Positions 872 to 25,724 of a stretch of DNA of 64,000 nt are shown here, piece after piece. The stretch comes from Klebsiella pneumoniae. Its GTDB lineage: Bacteria > Verrucomicrobiota > Verrucomicrobiia > Limisphaerales > SXTU01. Within the stretch, counting starts at the first letter, position 1. Each line of letters opens with the position of its first letter. The translations under genes and the position numbers were made by a program. The notes under the pieces are model-generated. The model ran no database searches, was not told where the DNA came from, and saw only the letters and a program-made list of their open reading frames with translations. The stretch spans positions 1-64,000 of the forward strand of contig CALQJI020000006.1 of assembly GCA_943330855.2 (NCBI GenBank), read 5' to 3'.

Positions 872-2944
872 TCACGTCGCGCGTTGGACCAACTCCCGCG
901 CCAGCTTCGCCAGTTCCAAGTCCCGCGTGAGGTCGGCGAACTTGAACTGGGTGTCGCCGCTCTGGGTCTGGCCGAGCAACTCACCGGGGCCGCGCAGTTG
1001 CAGGTCCGCCTCGGCGATGGCAAAGCCGTCGGTGGTCTCTTCCAGCACCTTCAGCCGCGCGCGGGCGTCGTCGGTGAGCTTGGCGGCGACGAGGACGCAC
1101 CAAGAGTCGTGCGCGCCGCGCCCGATGCGGCCGCGCAACTGGTGGAGCTGCGCGAGACCGAAGTGCTCGGCGTTCTCGATGACCATGACCGTCGCGTTCG
1201 GCACGTCCACGCCGACCTCGATGACGCTGGTAGCGAGGAGGGCTTGCACGCGGTTCGCGCGGAAGTCGGCCATGACTTGCTCCTTCTCCTCCGTCGACAG
1301 CCGCCCGTGCAGCAGCGCGACGCCGTGGGGCGCGAGTTCCTTCGCCAACTTCTCGAACTCCGCCATCACGGCCTTCGTGCCGGTCTTCAGGTCGGTGTCC
1401 TCGACGCGCGGATAAACGATGTAGGCTTGGCGTCCCTCGGCGAGCCGCTCGCGGACGAAGGCCCAGACCTTGGGCAATTTCTCCGGCCCCCGGACGAAAG
1501 TCTTGATGGCCCCGCGTCCCGGCGGCAGATGCGCGATGACGGAGACATCGAGGTCGCCGTAAATCGTGAGGCCCAGCGTGCGCGGGATGGGCGTGGCGGT
1601 CATCACCAGCAGGTGCGGATAATGGCCCTTGCGCAGCAACCGCTCGCGTTGAGCGACGCCGAATTTGTGCTGCTCATCAATGATGACCAGGCCGAGTCGC
1701 TCGACGGTGAAGGCGTCTTCCACGAGCGCGTGGGTGCCGATGAAAAGTTGAGAGTTGGGAGTTGAGAGTTGGGAGTTGGAGGCGGTCTTTCGGGAGCCCG
1801 TGCGGAGCTCGACGTTCACTCCCAGCGGCTCCAACCACTTGGTGAAGTTGCGGAAGTGTTGCTCGGCCAGAATCTCCGTCGGGGCCATGAGGGCGACGCT
1901 GTGACCGCTCTCCAAGGCCATCAACGCGGTGCAGGCAGCGACGATGGTCTTGCCGGAGCCCACGTCGCCTTGCAGCAGGCGGCGCATGGGCGTGCCGCGC
2001 GCGAGGTCGGCGCGGATTTCGCGGAGGACGGTGGTCTGCGAGTCGGTGAGCGGGAAGCCGAGCTGGGCGAGGTAGGGGCGGATGAGGTGGTTGTCGCCTT
2101 TGCAAGGAAGGCTGTGGGCGTTGGCGCGGAGCTTGTCGCGCCGGGCGCGGACGGCGAGCTGGAGGTCGAGGAATTCGTCGAGGGCGAGACGTTGGCGGGC
2201 GATTTCGACGTCGGGGACTTCGGCGGGGAAGTGGAGGGAGCGGACGGCAGCGGCGCGGGTGAGGGAGAGAGCAGGATTAGGATCAAGATCAGGAGCAGGA
2301 GGGGCAGCGGCGGCGGTTTCTGCTCCTGCTCGTAATCCTGATCCTAATCCTGCTCCGCCCCTTCCCCGCGCCAACCACTCCCCGTGCCGCTCGGGAATCT
2401 GCCCGCCGTATTCCTCCAGCGTCCGCCACAGCAGCCCGCGCAGCCACCGCTGCGACAAACCCTCCGTCAGCGGATACACCGGCACGATGCGGTGCAGATG
2501 CGTGGACGCCTCCTCGCCGGACTCGACGATTTCCGTCTCGGGATGGTCCATCGTGCGCGGCTTGAGGGAGAGGAGTTTGCCGTGGACGAACACCTCGTCG
2601 CCGACGCGGAACTTCTCCGCCAGCCACGGCACATTCCACCAGCGGCAATGCAGTCGCCCGGTGCCATCGTCGAGGATGAACTCGAACGTGGACTTGGTCT
2701 TCTTGGCGTAAAAATTTGTGCCCTGCGCGATGATGCGGCCCAGCACGGTGGCGGGGACTTTCAGCAGCAACAGCCCGATGCTCCAACCCGTGCGTCGGTC
2801 TTCGTGGCGACGCGGTTGCAGCAGGAGCAAATCCTCGACGGTCGCAACCCCCAGCTTGGCAAAAAACTCAACGTGCTTCGGCCCCACGCCGCGCAAGGCG
2901 GTGATGGGCCGGGCGAGTGGAGTTGGCATGAGCGCCTCGGACAT
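872..2944 (-). CDS. recG: ATP-dependent DNA helicase RecG
   Basis: RecG is a superfamily 2 helicase that remodels stalled replication forks and Holliday junctions in the cytoplasm. The N-terminal wedge/OB region begins near ALRGVGPKHVEFF. The helicase core has a Walker A motif (LLQGDVGSGKT), the DEQH box (VIIDEQHKFG) and motifs V-VI (QLRGRIGRG). The start is chosen at the ATG at 2944; a second ATG at 2929 is possible, and an upstream GTG extension to 3043 has no family support. The length of about 690 residues is usual. Two insertions interrupt otherwise conserved sequence: a palindrome near residues 197-226 and a heptamer tract just before the FIGTHALV motif. Both keep frame and probably sit in surface loops. 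Confidence 0.95.
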   Translation of the reverse strand: MSEALMPTPLARPITALRGVGPKHVEFFAKLGVATVEDLLLLQPRRHEDRRTGWSIGLLLLKVPATVLGRIIAQGTNFYAKKTKSTFEFILDDGTGRLHCRWWNVPWLAEKFRVGDEVFVHGKLLSLKPRTMDHPETEIVESGEEASTHLHRIVPVYPLTEGLSQRWLRGLLWRTLEEYGGQIPERHGEWLARGRGGAGLGSGLRAGAETAAAAPPAPDLDPNPALSLTRAAAVRSLHFPAEVPDVEIARQRLALDEFLDLQLAVRARRDKLRANAHSLPCKGDNHLIRPYLAQLGFPLTDSQTTVLREIRADLARGTPMRRLLQGDVGSGKTIVAACTALMALESGHSVALMAPTEILAEQHFRNFTKWLEPLGVNVELRTGSRKTASNSQLSTPNSQLFIGTHALVEDAFTVERLGLVIIDEQHKFGVAQRERLLRKGHYPHLLVMTATPIPRTLGLTIYGDLDVSVIAHLPPGRGAIKTFVRGPEKLPKVWAFVRERLAEGRQAYIVYPRVEDTDLKTGTKAVMAEFEKLAKELAPHGVALLHGRLSTEEKEQVMADFRANRVQALLATSVIEVGVDVPNATVMVIENAEHFGLAQLHQLRGRIGRGAHDSWCVLVAAKLTDDARARLKVLEETTDGFAIAEADLQLRGPGELLGQTQSGDTQFKFADLTRDLELAKLARELVQRAT
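1746..1780. repeat. In-frame heptamer tract inside recG
   Basis: Five tandem copies of AGTTGAG/AGTTGGG on the plus strand. On the recG sense strand they encode the [11 protein letters not shown] segment, placed immediately before the conserved FIGTHAL motif. The same unit recurs at 4313-4340 and 25111-25138. Confidence 0.9.
2269..2355. repeat. In-frame palindromic insertion inside recG
   Basis: The left arm (2269-2300) and right arm (2321-2355) are inverted repeats around a 20-nt loop. The outer 17 bases (GAGCAGGATTAGGATCA) pair perfectly and the inner part imperfectly. The 87-bp unit equals 29 codons and adds a Gly/Ala/Pro-rich stretch between the wedge-domain region and the conserved segment leading to RSLHFP. 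Confidence 0.8.
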
Positions 2945-3027: not shown

Positions 3028-3128
3028 GAACCACGAAGGACACGAAGGCGGTTCAACGCAGGTGCCGGTATCAAATGGCTTCCACTTTGTGTGCTTCGTG
3101 CCCTTCGTGGTTATTCCAAACTGAGCCA
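3028..3128. repeat. 101-bp dispersed repeat, copy A
   Basis: It lies between recG and the A2M gene. It starts GAACCACGAAGGACACGAAG and ends AACTGAGCCA. The outer arms are inverted (CACGAAGG versus CCTTCGTG), and the core contains GGTGCCGGTATCAAA. A second copy of identical length in the same orientation is at 41818-41918. Confidence 0.85.
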
Positions 3129-3166: not shown

Positions 3167-6100
3167 TCATTTCCCATCCACCACCGTCACGCGCAGCTCC
3201 GCGCCGTTGCAGCGAATCTCCGGCACATACATGGCGTGGCCGAGGACGGGGAGGGCGTGGAAGGCCCCGGGGACTTCCGCGCGCATCTCGTATCGGAGTT
3301 GCCAGACGCCTTCGGGCAGCTTGTCGAGGAAGAGGGCGACTTTGCGGTCGCGCAGCTCTTGGTAAACCCAGCGCGTGCGGCCCGTGAAATCCGGCTCGCC
3401 GATGCCGATGGGCCGGGGCGCGGGGAAGCCGATGGGCGGCACAAGGCCAACCCGAGCCGGCGCAGCGGCGACGAGCACCGGTGCTGCTGCCTTCGCCGGA
3501 GCGGCAACGGCCGCCGCGACTTTGGACTTTGGACCCGCCTGCACGGCGGGCGCGGGCTTGCCGACTTCGCCAAACTTCCGCTCCACCGCGCCGCTCTTGA
3601 GTTCGCGCGCGTAGAGTTGCTCGCCGCTGCGCACCGCCACGGCCTCGAAGCCGGCGGGCTTCAAATCCTCGAAGAGCAGATACTCGTAGTTGTTCTTCGC
3701 CTCGATGGTCAGGACGGTCTCGATGCGCTCGCCGCTCTTCACGGTCTCGCCGTCGAGCAGCGGCACCTTGTCGTAGAGCAGGCCCTTGAGGAGCGTCGGG
3801 CGGCCCACCAGCTTGAAGTATTCGCGCTTCACGAAAATCTCGTTGCCGCTCGCGGGGATGGGTTCTTCGAGACTGAAGAACTTGGCTTCGACGGCGAAAT
3901 AGACCGGCCCCTCGCCATTGCGCTTGATGCGGATGTCGTTCGCGCCGTCCTTGATGAGCTTCGTGTCCACGGCGAAGCGGCTGGGCGCGGCGAAGACCTC
4001 CGCGCCGCTGATCTTGCGCTTGGCGATGCTCGTGCCGTTGACCGTCACTTCGTATTCCAGCTCGGGCGACAGCTCCTTGGTCACGCGCAGGTAATCGTTG
4101 AGCGCGAGGACGGTGATGGCGGTGTCGCGGGTGTTGCTCCATTGCGCGCCGCGCCGTCCCTTGAGCAGCCAGTTGGTGACCGGCTCGATGAGCTTGTTCT
4201 GCGGGTCAATCGCCAGCAACGCGCGGAGCGCAAAGGCCGTGGCCTCCACGCCGCCGTCGGACCAGCGCCAGTAAACGCCATCCTCGCCCCAATGCGCCGT
4301 GCCCATGACGGGAGTTGAGAGTTGAGGGTTGAGAGTTGAGGGGGCGACGAGCACGGACAGGTCCGGGCGGTCGTCGCGCTTCACGCCGTTCTCCAGGTTG
4401 GCGATGAGCGTCTTGGCTTCCGCGCCTTTGCCGAAGTGGTGCGCGGACAACGCGAGCAGCGCGCGGGTGTAGGCGTTGAGCGCCTCGCGGTTCTTCCACA
4501 GGTTGTCGAACGCCTTTGTCTGGAACGGCGACAAGCCAGCTTGCTTCGCGTCCGCACGTTGCACGGCGAGCGAGTGCAGCATGAAGGCCTGCATGTCGAA
4601 GTTGAGTTCTTCTTCGACCAGCGTCTTGTCGAGGTAAGCCGCGCCGCGCTCGATGGTATTGGCCTTGATGGCCACGCCGGATTGCTTCGCGAGCGTGAGG
4701 CCCCACACGACGTAGGCGGTCATCCAACGGTCGCTCGTGCCTTCCTTCCACCAACCCCAGCCGCCGTCGCCGTGCTGGAAGTCGTAGAGGCGTTTCAGGC
4801 CGGCGTCGGTCATTTCGGTCAGCTTGGCCAAGTCTTTCTTCGCACCGAGATTCGGCGGAGCAGCGCCACCGGCACGGGCTTCGATGCCTCCGAACACACG
4901 GCTCATCACGTCCTCCGGTTGCAGGCCGAGGTCCTTCAAGGTCTTCGCCGTGATGACCGCCGGGAGGAAGCGGCTCATGGTCTGCTCGGTGCAGCCGTAG
5001 GGGTAATCAATCAGGTAAGGCAGGGCGTCGAGCATCGTCACGGCGAGGCTGGGCGCGACCTGCACGACGAGCGTGGTGGTGTCCTTCTTGCGCGCGGCGG
5101 GGATGTCGAGCCGCACGGTGATGTCGGAGCCGCGCACCTTGCCGGCCTTGGTGAGGAAGCGCTCGATGCCGTGCTCGTGGACGGGATAAGTCTTCTCCAT
5201 CGCGTCCGAGTATTTGCCGCTGATGGCCGTGACCTTGAGCCGCGCGGTGCCGGGGTTCTTCACGTAGATGGCCCAGTCTTCGCGCACCTCGCCGTTGGCG
5301 GGCACGGTGACGGAGGCGGCGCGCTGGCCTTTCACCACCATGCCGTCCTTGATGCCGATGCCGCTGATGATAAGGCCGTCGGCCTCCAAGTTGTTCTTCA
5401 CCTCCAGCGGCTGGTCGGTGTTGTTGTTGAAGACCGCCGAGACCAGCACCAGGTCGCCCACGGAGAAGAAGCGCGGGGCTTGCAACCGCACGATGAGCGG
5501 TTGCTTCGTGCGCGTGGTCGCGTTGGCGATGCCGAACTGTGCGCCGCTGCCGACCGCGCGGGCCGTGGCCTTCCAGCCGGTGAGCGAGTCGGGATACTTC
5601 ACCGGCACGCGCGCGGTGCCGTCCGCGCCGGTCTTCACGTCCGGCAGCCAGAGGATGGTGGAACGGAAATCCGTGCGGACGATGACGTTTGGCTCGGCCT
5701 CGCCTTCGCCGGCCGCTTGCTTCTCGCGCTTGCCTTTCTCGTCGCTCTCGCCGCGCCGCGCATCGGCAGAGAACTTTGCGGCTCCCATCGGCGCGGACAT
5801 CGGAGCCATCGCCATTGCAGGTGAGGCGGCCAACGCTGCCCCACGCAGCATCCGGTTTGCATTCGCCCCGCCGCCAAAACCAGCGGCTTGGTCCAGCACG
5901 CCGTCTGAGTCAGAATCAAGAGCAATTGATTGGCCCGCCTTGCGCAGCTCTTGCAGCCCGCCCTTGTCGCTCTCGAACGCCCAGTTCCGCTTCTTCGCGT
6001 CGTCGCGCGCCAGCGCATCGCTCTGCTCCAGCACCATCTTCACGCCGTCCTCCTCCCACTCCACGAGCTTCGCGTAGCTCTTCTGGTTGAACGTGCTCTG

Positions 6101-9100
6101 CGTCTGCGTGCGTTGCTGGCGCTTCGTGCCGAAGTAGAACTTGCGCGGGTCGCCCGCGTAGTCGCTCTGGATGTAATAGACCGACTCGTCCACCAGCCCC
6201 ACGGCCACCTCAGCCGCGACGGGCTTGCCCTCGTGGTCGCGCGCGGTCACGAGCAACGTGCCTTCCTCGCGCGGCTGGTATTGGGTGCGGTCGGGCTTCA
6301 CGTCCACCGTGAGGAAATGCTTTGTGGGCGGCACGATGACCTGCTTCGTGTCCATGTGAACCTGCTTGTCCGCGACCATCGCGGCGCTGAGGAACACGTT
6401 GGGCACATGGGCATCGCTGAGTTGCAGTTCGACCAGCTTCACCGTGCCTGTGAGATGCACGACCTGATGGCTGATGAGTTCGTCCGCCTCGACGGTGAAG
6501 AGCACGTAACGGTCGTTGCTGTTCGCCACGAGCATGACGGGAGCCTTCTGTCCGCTGCGGAACGTGTCGCGGTCCACGATGATTTCCACGCCGCCGTGGC
6601 GGTAGCCGAGTTCAGCCGTGGCGTTGTTCGCGACCCACAGCGTCATCTCTGTGCGGATGGGCTGCGGCGGGCGATTGGGGAAGGCGTCTTCCGTCAGCCA
6701 CGTCACCTTGTAATAGCCCTCGCGCTCCGGCGTGAAGACCAAGTCCACCTTGCCCTCGGCGTCCGTCTTGAGCGTGCGCGTGAGGATTTCGTCGCTGTGA
6801 TAGCCACGGAATTTCAGCCGCCACGGACGCTGCCCCAACTGCGGCGCGGGCGGGAACTTCCCATCGCTTTGCAGCGCCTTCAGCTCCGGCCCCTTCACTT
6901 CCTTGCCAGCGGGGTTCACCCAGATTTCTTCCCAATACTCGCGCGTGACCTTGACGATGCCCTCGATGACGGCGGGCTGTTCGTTCGCGTCCTGCGCGCG
7001 GAAGTTCACCGTCGCCTTGTCGCCGGGCTTGTGGAGGTTGTGCTCCGGCTTGGCGTGGACGTAGTAGCGCTGGCGCGTAACGCGCACGGTGCCGCTGCCG
7101 GTGATTTCGCGTCGGCTCGCGTCCACCACGCGCGCCTCGATGCGGAACTCGAAGTCCTGCCCGTAATCCTTCGGCGACTCGAACTCCAGCATTGCCTTGC
7201 CCGTCGCGTCGGTCTTGAGCGTCTCGCGTTTAAGGATTTGCCCGCTGCCACCACCGCGAAAGCCGCGCCCGCGTCCGAAGCGCCCCTCGTTCTCCTCGTA
7301 GAACCAGCCGAACTCGCGCGGCTCCTTCCACGCGAAGTAATATGGGTCTTGATGCACGATGACCTCGACCGTCGCGTTCGCCACCGGCCCGCCAAAATAG
7401 TAGTCGGCCTGGATGTTGACCTCGACCTTGTCGCCAGTGCGGAAGGCTTTCTTGCGCCCGTCCAACTCCGGCGTCTGCACGGCGACCTTGAACTCCGGCA
7501 GCTTGTATTCCTCCAACCGGAAGAGCGTCGCGTTGCCGATGTGCGTGGCCTTCGCCTTGTCGCGGAACTGCACGTGGTATTCGCCGAGCCGCTGCTGTTC
7601 GGTGAGTTCGAGCGACGCCCATCCGGTGCCGAACTCGTTCAGCTTGAGGTCGCCCTCCTTCACCTTCGCGCCGTCCGGGCCGGTAATGGTGAAGGCAATC
7701 GTCTCGTTCGCCGGCGTGGCATACACCGAGCCGTTGTAGCGGCGAACCATCGCCTTCCACTGCACCGTCTCCTTCGGGCGATACGCCGGGCGGTCAGTGA
7801 AGGCGTAGATGCGCCACGACTCGTGCGGGTCGCGATAGGAGTAAGTGTTGCCGGGGCTGAAGGCTTGTTTGTCGCCGAGTGCGGCGGCAGCAAAGATTTC
7901 CACGTTATTGTTCGCCACTCGCATGACTTCAAACACCGCGAGGCCGTCCTTGTCCGTCACCTTGTCCTGCGAACGCGCCTCCCACTTGTTGTTGCCCACA
8001 TGCCACCGTTCCCAGAGGCGAGTCTTCGCGTTCGCCAGCGGCTTGCCCGAGAGCGCGTCGGTGACGAAGACGAGGGCGGTCTTGCCGCTGGTCTTGAGCA
8101 CCAGCGCCGCATCGGTCACGAGCACGAGGTCGCGCGCGGACTGCCCGCCGCCTTGCGCCTCGAGCACGTAAGCGCCGGGGCGCAGCTTGCCGTCCACGCG
8201 CAACGCCGCGTTGCCCGGGCGGTAGTCGCCCTTGTCCTTCGTGTCGTGCTCCCACGCCTTCGCCTTCTCGCGACCGGCTAGCTCGATGGTCTGGAGCCAC
8301 GAGGGACGCTTGTTGCCGTCCTGTGTCGCGAGGTTCACGTCCTTCGTGAGGTCCACGGGATAGAGCGCCAACTCGACGCGCTTCACGTTGCGCCAGTTGA
8401 GGTGATACTGAACCTCCGAGTCCGGCAGGAAGACGTGCGACACGCCGACGCCGAGGTTCACCTGCGTGATGTTGCGAATCTGCGCCTGCGCCTGCTCCCA
8501 GTAGCGGGTCTCGCCCTTCTGGAACTCCGCGACCAGCCGACGGAACAGCGCGAGCGCCTTCACGTAATCCTGCTCCTGCCTCCAGTTGCCGTCCTTGAGC
8601 GGGACGGCGCGGCCCTGGTTCATCATCCACTCGGCGTAGTGATACAGCGCGTCGTCATACCAGTCCGTCCCTTTGCCCGGCTTGAGCGCCGCCTCGAAAT
8701 GTTCCGGCACGCGGGCGCGGGCGTCCCAATCGCCGCCGTGGTATTGGAACGACACGGCGAGGAGATAATGCGCGTGGGCCTTGTCGTTGTCGGTCGCGGC
8801 AATCTTGAGGGTGTTCTCGAGGATGTTCAGCGGAAGCGCGTTGCCGTAGTTCCCATAGCGATAGTAAGGCTCCGCGCCCGGCGGCTTGGCCGAGCGCCGG
8901 ACGATGTCGAGGTAACGCGTCCGCGACTCCTCACCCGCGCGCTGGCCGGCCCACCAATCGAGCGCCTGCGAATAGTGCTGCCACGCGCCGCCCCAATTGC
9001 GCTGGTTGCGCGGCGTCCAGTGCGAGTCCCCGAGCGACTCCTGCACTTCGACCCACCCGCGGTCCTTCTCCTCCTCGCGCTGCACATCGCGCACGAGGAC

Positions 9101-9388
9101 GTTTAGCTCCTGCCGCGCCTGATTGAACTTCGTGTTGTCCGCCCGCTGCGTGCTCGCCTCCGCGCGCCACAACGTGTCCGCGCGCCGGAACAGCACCCAG
9201 CGCTGCTCGACCGGCGGGAGGTTCGTCACGTTCACCGCGCGGTAAATCTCATTCGCCTTGAGGAAGGATTTCTCCGCGATGAACTTCTCCGCCTCGGCCC
9301 GCTGGGCGGCGTAGCTCGGCGGCGGTTCAGCAGCGAAGAGCGAGGCGGCAAGGGAAAGGAAAGCGACAGCGGCGAGCAACGGTTTCAT
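3167..9388 (-). CDS. Large secreted alpha-2-macroglobulin family protein with thioester
   Basis: The 2073-residue protein begins with a Sec signal peptide (MKPLLAAVAFLSLAASLFAA). Macroglobulin-like domains follow, including an MG2-type PAYRPKETVQWK near the middle. An Ala/Met/Gly-rich segment (about residues 1170-1230) occupies the expected bait-region position, directly before the A2M domain (RTDFRSTILWLPDV). The internal thioester motif YGCTEQ is intact, with Cys1466 and Gln1469. Family members trap attacking proteases: cleavage of the bait exposes the thioester, which then couples covalently to the protease. A tetratricopeptide-like helical stretch precedes the MG domains. The C-terminal 600 residues include the alpha-alpha thioester domain and a receptor-like beta region. 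Bacterial homologues are often about 1500-1900 residues, so this is long. A heptamer tract interrupts it near residue 1685. It is divergent from the M14 peptidase gene. Confidence 0.9.
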   Translation of the reverse strand: MKPLLAAVAFLSLAASLFAAEPPPSYAAQRAEAEKFIAEKSFLKANEIYRAVNVTNLPPVEQRWVLFRRADTLWRAEASTQRADNTKFNQARQELNVLVRDVQREEEKDRGWVEVQESLGDSHWTPRNQRNWGGAWQHYSQALDWWAGQRAGEESRTRYLDIVRRSAKPPGAEPYYRYGNYGNALPLNILENTLKIAATDNDKAHAHYLLAVSFQYHGGDWDARARVPEHFEAALKPGKGTDWYDDALYHYAEWMMNQGRAVPLKDGNWRQEQDYVKALALFRRLVAEFQKGETRYWEQAQAQIRNITQVNLGVGVSHVFLPDSEVQYHLNWRNVKRVELALYPVDLTKDVNLATQDGNKRPSWLQTIELAGREKAKAWEHDTKDKGDYRPGNAALRVDGKLRPGAYVLEAQGGGQSARDLVLVTDAALVLKTSGKTALVFVTDALSGKPLANAKTRLWERWHVGNNKWEARSQDKVTDKDGLAVFEVMRVANNNVEIFAAAALGDKQAFSPGNTYSYRDPHESWRIYAFTDRPAYRPKETVQWKAMVRRYNGSVYATPANETIAFTITGPDGAKVKEGDLKLNEFGTGWASLELTEQQRLGEYHVQFRDKAKATHIGNATLFRLEEYKLPEFKVAVQTPELDGRKKAFRTGDKVEVNIQADYYFGGPVANATVEVIVHQDPYYFAWKEPREFGWFYEENEGRFGRGRGFRGGGSGQILKRETLKTDATGKAMLEFESPKDYGQDFEFRIEARVVDASRREITGSGTVRVTRQRYYVHAKPEHNLHKPGDKATVNFRAQDANEQPAVIEGIVKVTREYWEEIWVNPAGKEVKGPELKALQSDGKFPPAPQLGQRPWRLKFRGYHSDEILTRTLKTDAEGKVDLVFTPEREGYYKVTWLTEDAFPNRPPQPIRTEMTLWVANNATAELGYRHGGVEIIVDRDTFRSGQKAPVMLVANSNDRYVLFTVEADELISHQVVHLTGTVKLVELQLSDAHVPNVFLSAAMVADKQVHMDTKQVIVPPTKHFLTVDVKPDRTQYQPREEGTLLVTARDHEGKPVAAEVAVGLVDESVYYIQSDYAGDPRKFYFGTKRQQRTQTQSTFNQKSYAKLVEWEEDGVKMVLEQSDALARDDAKKRNWAFESDKGGLQELRKAGQSIALDSDSDGVLDQAAGFGGGANANRMLRGAALAASPAMAMAPMSAPMGAAKFSADARRGESDEKGKREKQAAGEGEAEPNVIVRTDFRSTILWLPDVKTGADGTARVPVKYPDSLTGWKATARAVGSGAQFGIANATTRTKQPLIVRLQAPRFFSVGDLVLVSAVFNNNTDQPLEVKNNLEADGLIISGIGIKDGMVVKGQRAASVTVPANGEVREDWAIYVKNPGTARLKVTAISGKYSDAMEKTYPVHEHGIERFLTKAGKVRGSDITVRLDIPAARKKDTTTLVVQVAPSLAVTMLDALPYLIDYPYGCTEQTMSRFLPAVITAKTLKDLGLQPEDVMSRVFGGIEARAGGAAPPNLGAKKDLAKLTEMTDAGLKRLYDFQHGDGGWGWWKEGTSDRWMTAYVVWGLTLAKQSGVAIKANTIERGAAYLDKTLVEEELNFDMQAFMLHSLAVQRADAKQAGLSPFQTKAFDNLWKNREALNAYTRALLALSAHHFGKGAEAKTLIANLENGVKRDDRPDLSVLVAPSTLNPQLSTPVMGTAHWGEDGVYWRWSDGGVEATAFALRALLAIDPQNKLIEPVTNWLLKGRRGAQWSNTRDTAITVLALNDYLRVTKELSPELEYEVTVNGTSIAKRKISGAEVFAAPSRFAVDTKLIKDGANDIRIKRNGEGPVYFAVEAKFFSLEEPIPASGNEIFVKREYFKLVGRPTLLKGLLYDKVPLLDGETVKSGERIETVLTIEAKNNYEYLLFEDLKPAGFEAVAVRSGEQLYARELKSGAVERKFGEVGKPAPAVQAGPKSKVAAAVAAPAKAAAPVLVAAAPARVGLVPPIGFPAPRPIGIGEPDFTGRTRWVYQELRDRKVALFLDKLPEGVWQLRYEMRAEVPGAFHALPVLGHAMYVPEIRCNGAELRVTVVDGK
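4313..4340. repeat. In-frame heptamer tract inside the A2M gene
   Basis: Four tandem copies of AGTTGAG, one of them GGTTGAG. On the sense strand they encode STLNPQLSTP in the thioester-domain region. Unit and orientation relative to the gene are the same as in recG and acnA. Confidence 0.85.

Positions 9389-23006: not shown

Positions 23007-25724
<2,718 letters not shown>

Follow-up and report, generated by a model that had tools for sequence, protein, structure and literature searches.

Heptanucleotide tandem arrays in recG and other housekeeping genes: recurrent sites, changing units and open orientation

The recG gene in the 64,000-nt stretch of DNA analysed here (the window) is an intact open reading frame that carries a tandem repeat of seven bases, which raises the question how such a sequence came to reside in a conserved gene and how it is tolerated there. 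The gene (875-2944, minus strand) specifies an ATP-dependent DNA helicase with the Pfam domains RecG_wedge, DEAD, Helicase_C, and RecG_dom3_C, and matches 1gm5 with E=1.7e-138. The array (1746-1779, minus strand, which is the sense strand of recG) consists of about five units (4.9 copies) of CTCAACT or CCCAACT and was also called by TRF as the 14-mer AGTTGAG+AGTTGGG. It is translated into 11 residues between TGSRK and IGTHAL, at about residues 389-400, and AlphaFold models residues 386-396 with low confidence (pLDDT <50), as a disordered loop. Nine near-matches to (CTCAACT)2 were detected in the window and none in 100 shuffles, by which a chance origin of the tract is ruled out. The repeat reported in the first-pass annotation of this DNA is thus real, and the cyclic peptide LNSQLST deduced there is correct for pure CTCAACT.

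A second repeat element is located in recG at 2262-2362 (minus strand), a near-perfect hairpin of the hexamer type with AGGATT and AGGATC units (MFE about -68 kcal/mol, z -9.9). It encodes a disordered linker (about residues 195-228; pLDDT <50 at residues 194-221). In the same linker of RecG from the genomes designated G002 and G012, other peptides resembling palindromic repeats were noticed, PPHPNPLSQWGRG and PSPRPSPPSDGGEG, so that a landing site is suggested for this linker as well. Inverted repeats of a different kind, recognized by eye, adjoin recG in intergenic DNA at 400-590 and 3030-3115 (CCGCAAAGGCGCAAAGACGCAAGG...CCTTGCGGCTTTGCG; CACGAAGGACACGAAGG...CTTCGTGCCCTTCGTGG), and a possible truncated transposase start, MTNHQQLTRLVTEFQREGNLTMSAMKAGMDPKTARKY, which we take to be IS21-like, lies at the contig edge (181-370).

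Sister tracts of CTCAACT are present on the minus strand in two further genes, at 4310-4342 in a gene for a bacterial alpha-2-macroglobulin-like protein (A2M; 3167-9388, minus strand; Pfam MG2, A2M_BRD, A2M, bMG10) and at 25108-25145 in acnA, encoding aconitate hydratase (23007-25724, minus strand; Pfam Aconitase, 2.4e-163). All three arrays are free of stops on the sense strand, as had been stated in the first-pass annotation. The accompanying claim, that the opposite strand is stopped in all three frames, applies to A2M only; in recG and acnA, stops occur in two of three frames, in recG because some units are CCCAACT, the complement of which contains no stop.

For array statistics, 1.06 Mb were sampled from five congeners, and pattern and DNA searches were performed in addition. 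In this sample, which apparently consists mostly of fragmented assemblies and for which gene calls are crude, 67 strict lag-7 arrays were found with about one expected. Controls yielded 0-2 arrays at lags 4, 5, 10, and 13, and two in 2.3 Mb of fifth-order Markov sequence. Array lengths have a single peak, at 30-32 nt, outside genes too, and a typical array comprises four to five heptamers. Hairpins are frequent among the arrays. The 57 arrays with a length of 27 nt or more comprise 31 heptamer families, which form near-neighbour series; the main ones, AACTCTC, AATCGGC, AAAAGGC, AAGTCAG, and AATGCGG, are without GGG runs. Predicted genes harbor 45 of the 67 arrays, and density is higher outside genes or at their edges (about 179 versus 48 per Mb). 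Period-7 arrays are also enriched in other taxonomic families of the order, 21 being present in 346 kb, a sample in which some loci overlap and which was fetched around RecG, AcnA, and A2M and is hence enriched for known sites. Non-Verrucomicrobial loci contained fewer, five arrays in 361 kb. Judging from the nearest named RecG records, the order belongs to Verrucomicrobiota.

Two unusual arrays were noted along the way. In a sulfatase, five units of TTTCAGC encode part of an N-terminal segment that resembles a signal peptide, LSAFSFQLSAFSFSAAG (L078:16645-16681). In G005, long heptamer arrays are clustered at L099:3229-6084, and the unit shifts along the array from GTTGATA to GCTGACG to GCTGATG, possibly a snapshot of unit turnover.

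A genome-wide orientation bias had been predicted from the tracts in the window, and it was found. Stops on one strand only are present in 20 of the 45 genic arrays, and in all 20 the open strand is the sense strand (p=1.9e-6). Since a stop would end the open reading frame, this test is partly circular, and a stop-blind test was therefore added, in which the coding potential of the flanks was scored without use of stops. Here, 20 of 22 arrays were sense-open, both exceptions being located at gene edges. At sites with coding status taken from orthologues, all 26 one-strand-open heptamer arrays were sense-open and single-armed. Two inverted arms were found in none of these 26 arrays of asymmetric families and in 13 of 42 arrays open on both strands (Fisher p=0.001; the arrays in both groups are partly non-independent, as some species share occupants). 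In genes, both arms are kept only by families that are open on both strands. In a membrane-protein gene of G008, a heptamer with stops on both strands is present, the variant units of which avoid stops in the frame used. From these data we infer that in-frame stop codons act as a filter leaving only open arms in genes.

It had also been proposed that the repeat entered recG, and a recent entry, unlike the orientation rule, was not supported when the RecG site was inspected in relatives. Within the genus, CTCAACT is found in G000, G001, and G008, CCCATCT/CCAATCT in G002, a degenerate CCTATTC-type array in G003, which is weak and below the strict cutoff, a GTCGAGA...CTCGACC hairpin in G004 and G005 (and in G012 of another family), and CGTGTTG...CAACACG in G006; G007 has no clear array at this site. 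The eight congeners with a RecG loop thus comprise two with CTCAACT, five with a different heptamer array, and one without a clear array. More distant relatives contain further arrays, ACGCATC/ACGCTTC or GGAGGAT...ATCCTCC for example, and the loop is hypervariable all through the order. Its length is equal in six of nine congeneric sequences, one group of RecGs has 51-nt arrays in the same register, and internal stops are absent from the RecG reading frames of all congeners with a full-length match. Among the outgroup matches listed, the interval is of one fixed length in 66 of 77 RecGs (three of them Verrucomicrobiota), and a heptamer array was detected in none of these one-length RecGs; in 1gm5 and 9wm0, a charged segment is present at the corresponding interval. 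The RecG loop of G043 contains a different palindromic repeat, GAGCAGGCTGGAAGCCTGCTC, in place of a heptamer array (L135).

Different heptamers at the same position in congeners were also found in the genes for MetRS, MiaA, GlnRS, and a flavin oxidoreductase (identified by Pfam), in those for DnaK and a RimO-like protein (identified by sequence), and in a gene without Pfam match designated hydrolase-like for convenience. The sites scored in this one genus showed two to six families each. Array-free versions of the flavin oxidoreductase and DnaK genes are present in G003. In GlnRS, three CTCAACG units of G000 stand against CTCAACT in G010 at equal length. The A2M site is occupied by CTCAACT in G010, by a CCAAACC-like array in G005, or by a non-repeat segment of the GGxLPANAG type; between G000 and G005, register and length are kept and the units changed together. 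Heptamers within a site are closer to each other than random, with 28 of 140 pairs at distance 0-1 versus 13.6 expected.

The strongest case of a fixed site with changing occupants is the membrane-protein gene mentioned above, which contains two arms about 140 nt apart. Four heptamer types occur in six two-armed species, GATTGCC in G000, the GTGATTA type in G008, GATGCTG in G004, and GGAATGC in G003, G005, and G007; the second arm was detected by the array caller in G000, G008, G003, and G007, by direct reading in G004, and partially in G005. The heptamers are complementary wherever two arms were found, the intervening sequence is homologous, and the reading frame is open in seven of seven species. 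Only one arm is present in G006. That heptamers are switched is concluded from such comparisons between species.

Aconitase arrays are composed of AAATCCG in G035 and of AAATCTC in G020, and four congeners (G001, G004, G005, and G006) are array-free, with a loop of the SAGGVYYPD/EAGGVYYPD type. About 15 nt of host sequence in the array-free genes correspond to 33 nt of array, which indicates replacement rather than clean insertion at this site. AcnA of G017, a member of another family, is 91% identical to AcnA of the window and carries, in the same position, an array of the CTCAACT type (L143). RecG of G017, unlike its AcnA, is only 65% identical to that of the window in the matched part, and transfer of acnA is a possibility. 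Near acnA in G023, a heptamer array of CTCAGGC/CTCAGGT extends over 376 nt (L152:1034-1409), far above the usual 31 nt.

Abundance of individual heptamer families was determined with exact 17-base probes in 12 genomes, nearby matches being merged into sites. The CTCAACT probe matched in all 12 genomes; the reversed-pattern control is uninformative for this heptamer, which is mirror-symmetric under rotation. CCCTCGA was detected at 17 sites in G005, five in G004, two in G012, one in G001, and none in the other eight genomes, GCAACAC at 30 sites in G006, 16 in G002, three in G008, and none in the other nine, and AAATCCG in G002 and G009 only. GCAACAC occupies the sites in RecG and MiaA of G006 and in the hydrolase-like gene of G002, and CCCTCGA those in RecG and the flavin oxidoreductase of G005. 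Most GCAACAC sites fetched from G006 form hairpins, in which arm length is about 25-30 nt and loop length about 13-31 nt. For several intergenic ones, the corresponding place is array-free in G000 or G003; at two genic sites examined, relatives have other heptamers. Array-free sites were thus found in relatives, but the junctions are too diverged to define a target-site duplication. The hairpin loops are mostly unrelated in sequence, a common tag, such as GTAG or CGTC of REP/BIME, was not apparent in the hairpins by eye, and an Rfam search of the hairpin loci gave no match. A candidate for a shared loop motif, GACGCGCTCG, was found in three hairpins and discarded, since it is absent from most loops. 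One G006 hairpin (L383) pairs a GCAACAC arm with a GCATCAC arm and could be an intermediate between families.

Period 7, the length mode, the families, the recurrent sites and their differing occupants, lineage-specific abundance, arm matching, and orientation are direct observations. With them in hand, we consider it rather probable that STRR-like heptamer elements spread to permissive loops of proteins and displace one another there, subject to filtering by stop codons. The RecG tract would then be a one-armed version of a heptanucleotide tandem-repeat element that is dispersed in the genome and the fuller form of which would be two inverted arrays with matching heptamers that enclose a loop and form a hairpin. 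Many heptamer families coexist per genome, and single ones are amplified in single lineages; certain permissive positions, for the most part loops of proteins, are occupied by arrays again and again, with one heptamer exchanged for another between species, and any arm placing a stop in frame would be lost. Dispersal within lineages and the matching of arms argue for copying of array sequence, and arrays probably spread in this way and not only in situ. Same-register, same-length changes, as in GlnRS of G000 and G010 and in the group of 51-nt RecG arrays, also argue for homogenisation of units in place. The most likely and most economical process would be template switching among and within arrays during replication or repair, assisted by hairpins, plus slippage. 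A dedicated process that draws arrays from a pool spanning the genome and copies them to fixed sites, where they replace the resident and, in hairpins, both arms jointly, is a more tentative proposal; if it were true, it would amount to cassette exchange for repeats with nothing in common but the 7-base period and a length of about 31 nt. Against copying stand the gradual-looking changes in situ at GlnRS and in the 51-nt RecG arrays, the closeness of heptamers within sites, the mostly unrelated hairpin loops, and the negative Rfam search; neither a conserved tag nor a target-site duplication or mobility gene was recognized.

The changes at GlnRS and in the 51-nt RecG arrays would fit local slippage only, by which heptamer microsatellites arise, drift, and are homogenised array by array in weakly constrained loops without copying between sites. 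The A2M arrays of G000 and G005 likewise keep register and length while their units change together, families form near-neighbour series, and heptamer over-representation has been attributed to polymerase slippage (PMC4692102). Slippage alone is nevertheless doubtful: it does not account for one heptamer at 30 sites in one species and at none in most relatives, for lengths that peak at 30-32 nt rather than decaying, in genes as well as outside, or for arms that match over a distance of about 140 nt. A selective advantage of the encoded peptide, or of a functional RNA hairpin in each host gene, could explain why both arms remain complementary in the membrane-protein gene and why one array lies in a leader-like segment of a sulfatase, but it is improbable, as peptides at one site vary between species, many sites are one-armed or array-free, and AlphaFold predicts a disordered loop for the RecG tract. 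Even less probable is a single repeat inserted recently into recG of this species and tolerated through its orientation; the orientation bias is real, but the tract is common to G001 and G008, and the site is occupied by other arrays in most of the remaining congeners. Seven-base units shift the frame when their number changes, and phase variation toggling recG and other genes might be considered. This is the least credible explanation, given open RecG frames in congeners with a full-length match, equal loop lengths in six of nine, conservation of frames across species, and housekeeping genes as hosts.

An old and unexplained observation, the over-representation of 7-base repeats in bacteria, can be approached here in one genus, in which many homologous sites with different heptamers per species make origin, spread, and replacement traceable. 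Housekeeping proteins, RecG, MetRS, GlnRS, MiaA, DnaK, and aconitase among them, take up repetitive DNA in loops, and stop codons apparently decide which arm survives and in which orientation.

Rickettsia palindromic elements are short hairpin-forming repeats that are tolerated in frame in unrelated genes, and a consensus sequence is shared within a family. The arrays described here resemble them in being in frame inside protein-coding genes, but share only the 7-base period and arm pairing and have no conserved element sequence. A literature search for the exact repeat sequence gave no match, and a multi-family, intragenic, switching form of heptamer repeats was not found described in open-licence papers. 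Heptameric repeats of Xanthomonas (GGGAATC) and Nostoc (GGGGAYT) form dispersed arrays of mostly four units, many of them as inverted pairs in Xanthomonas, and closely related species differ in repeat sequence at shared intergenic sites; there is one G-rich, G-quadruplex forming motif per lineage, about 90% intergenic (PMC4692102). Common to both systems are 7-base tandem units far above expectation that are dispersed in many copies. The arrays studied here differ in their many families, mostly without G-runs, in the replacement of heptamers between species, and in their location, which is often intragenic and, unlike in Xanthomonas, not mainly intergenic. In Beggiatoaceae, one strand of the TAACTGA direct repeats is stopped in every frame and the other encodes an open cyclic heptapeptide, copies within genes are open-oriented or at gene ends, and mobility has been suggested (PMC4679880). 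The one-strand stop principle, already noted there, is common to both, but TAACTGA is a single motif, located largely upstream of start codons and with related heptamers being rare (PMC4679880), whereas many heptamer families are present here. Degenerate heptanucleotide repeats of different classes pair into a hairpin in the P6b stem of cyanobacterial tRNA-Leu introns (PMC3488679), and STRR of Calothrix are heptanucleotide repeats according to a report as cited in PMC4692102. These are intronic or intergenic, with two classes at one site, in contrast to dozens of families and many protein-coding sites here. Heptamer repeats as such are already known, and, judged by the open-licence literature, it is the multi-family, switching, and intragenic form that appears to be new.
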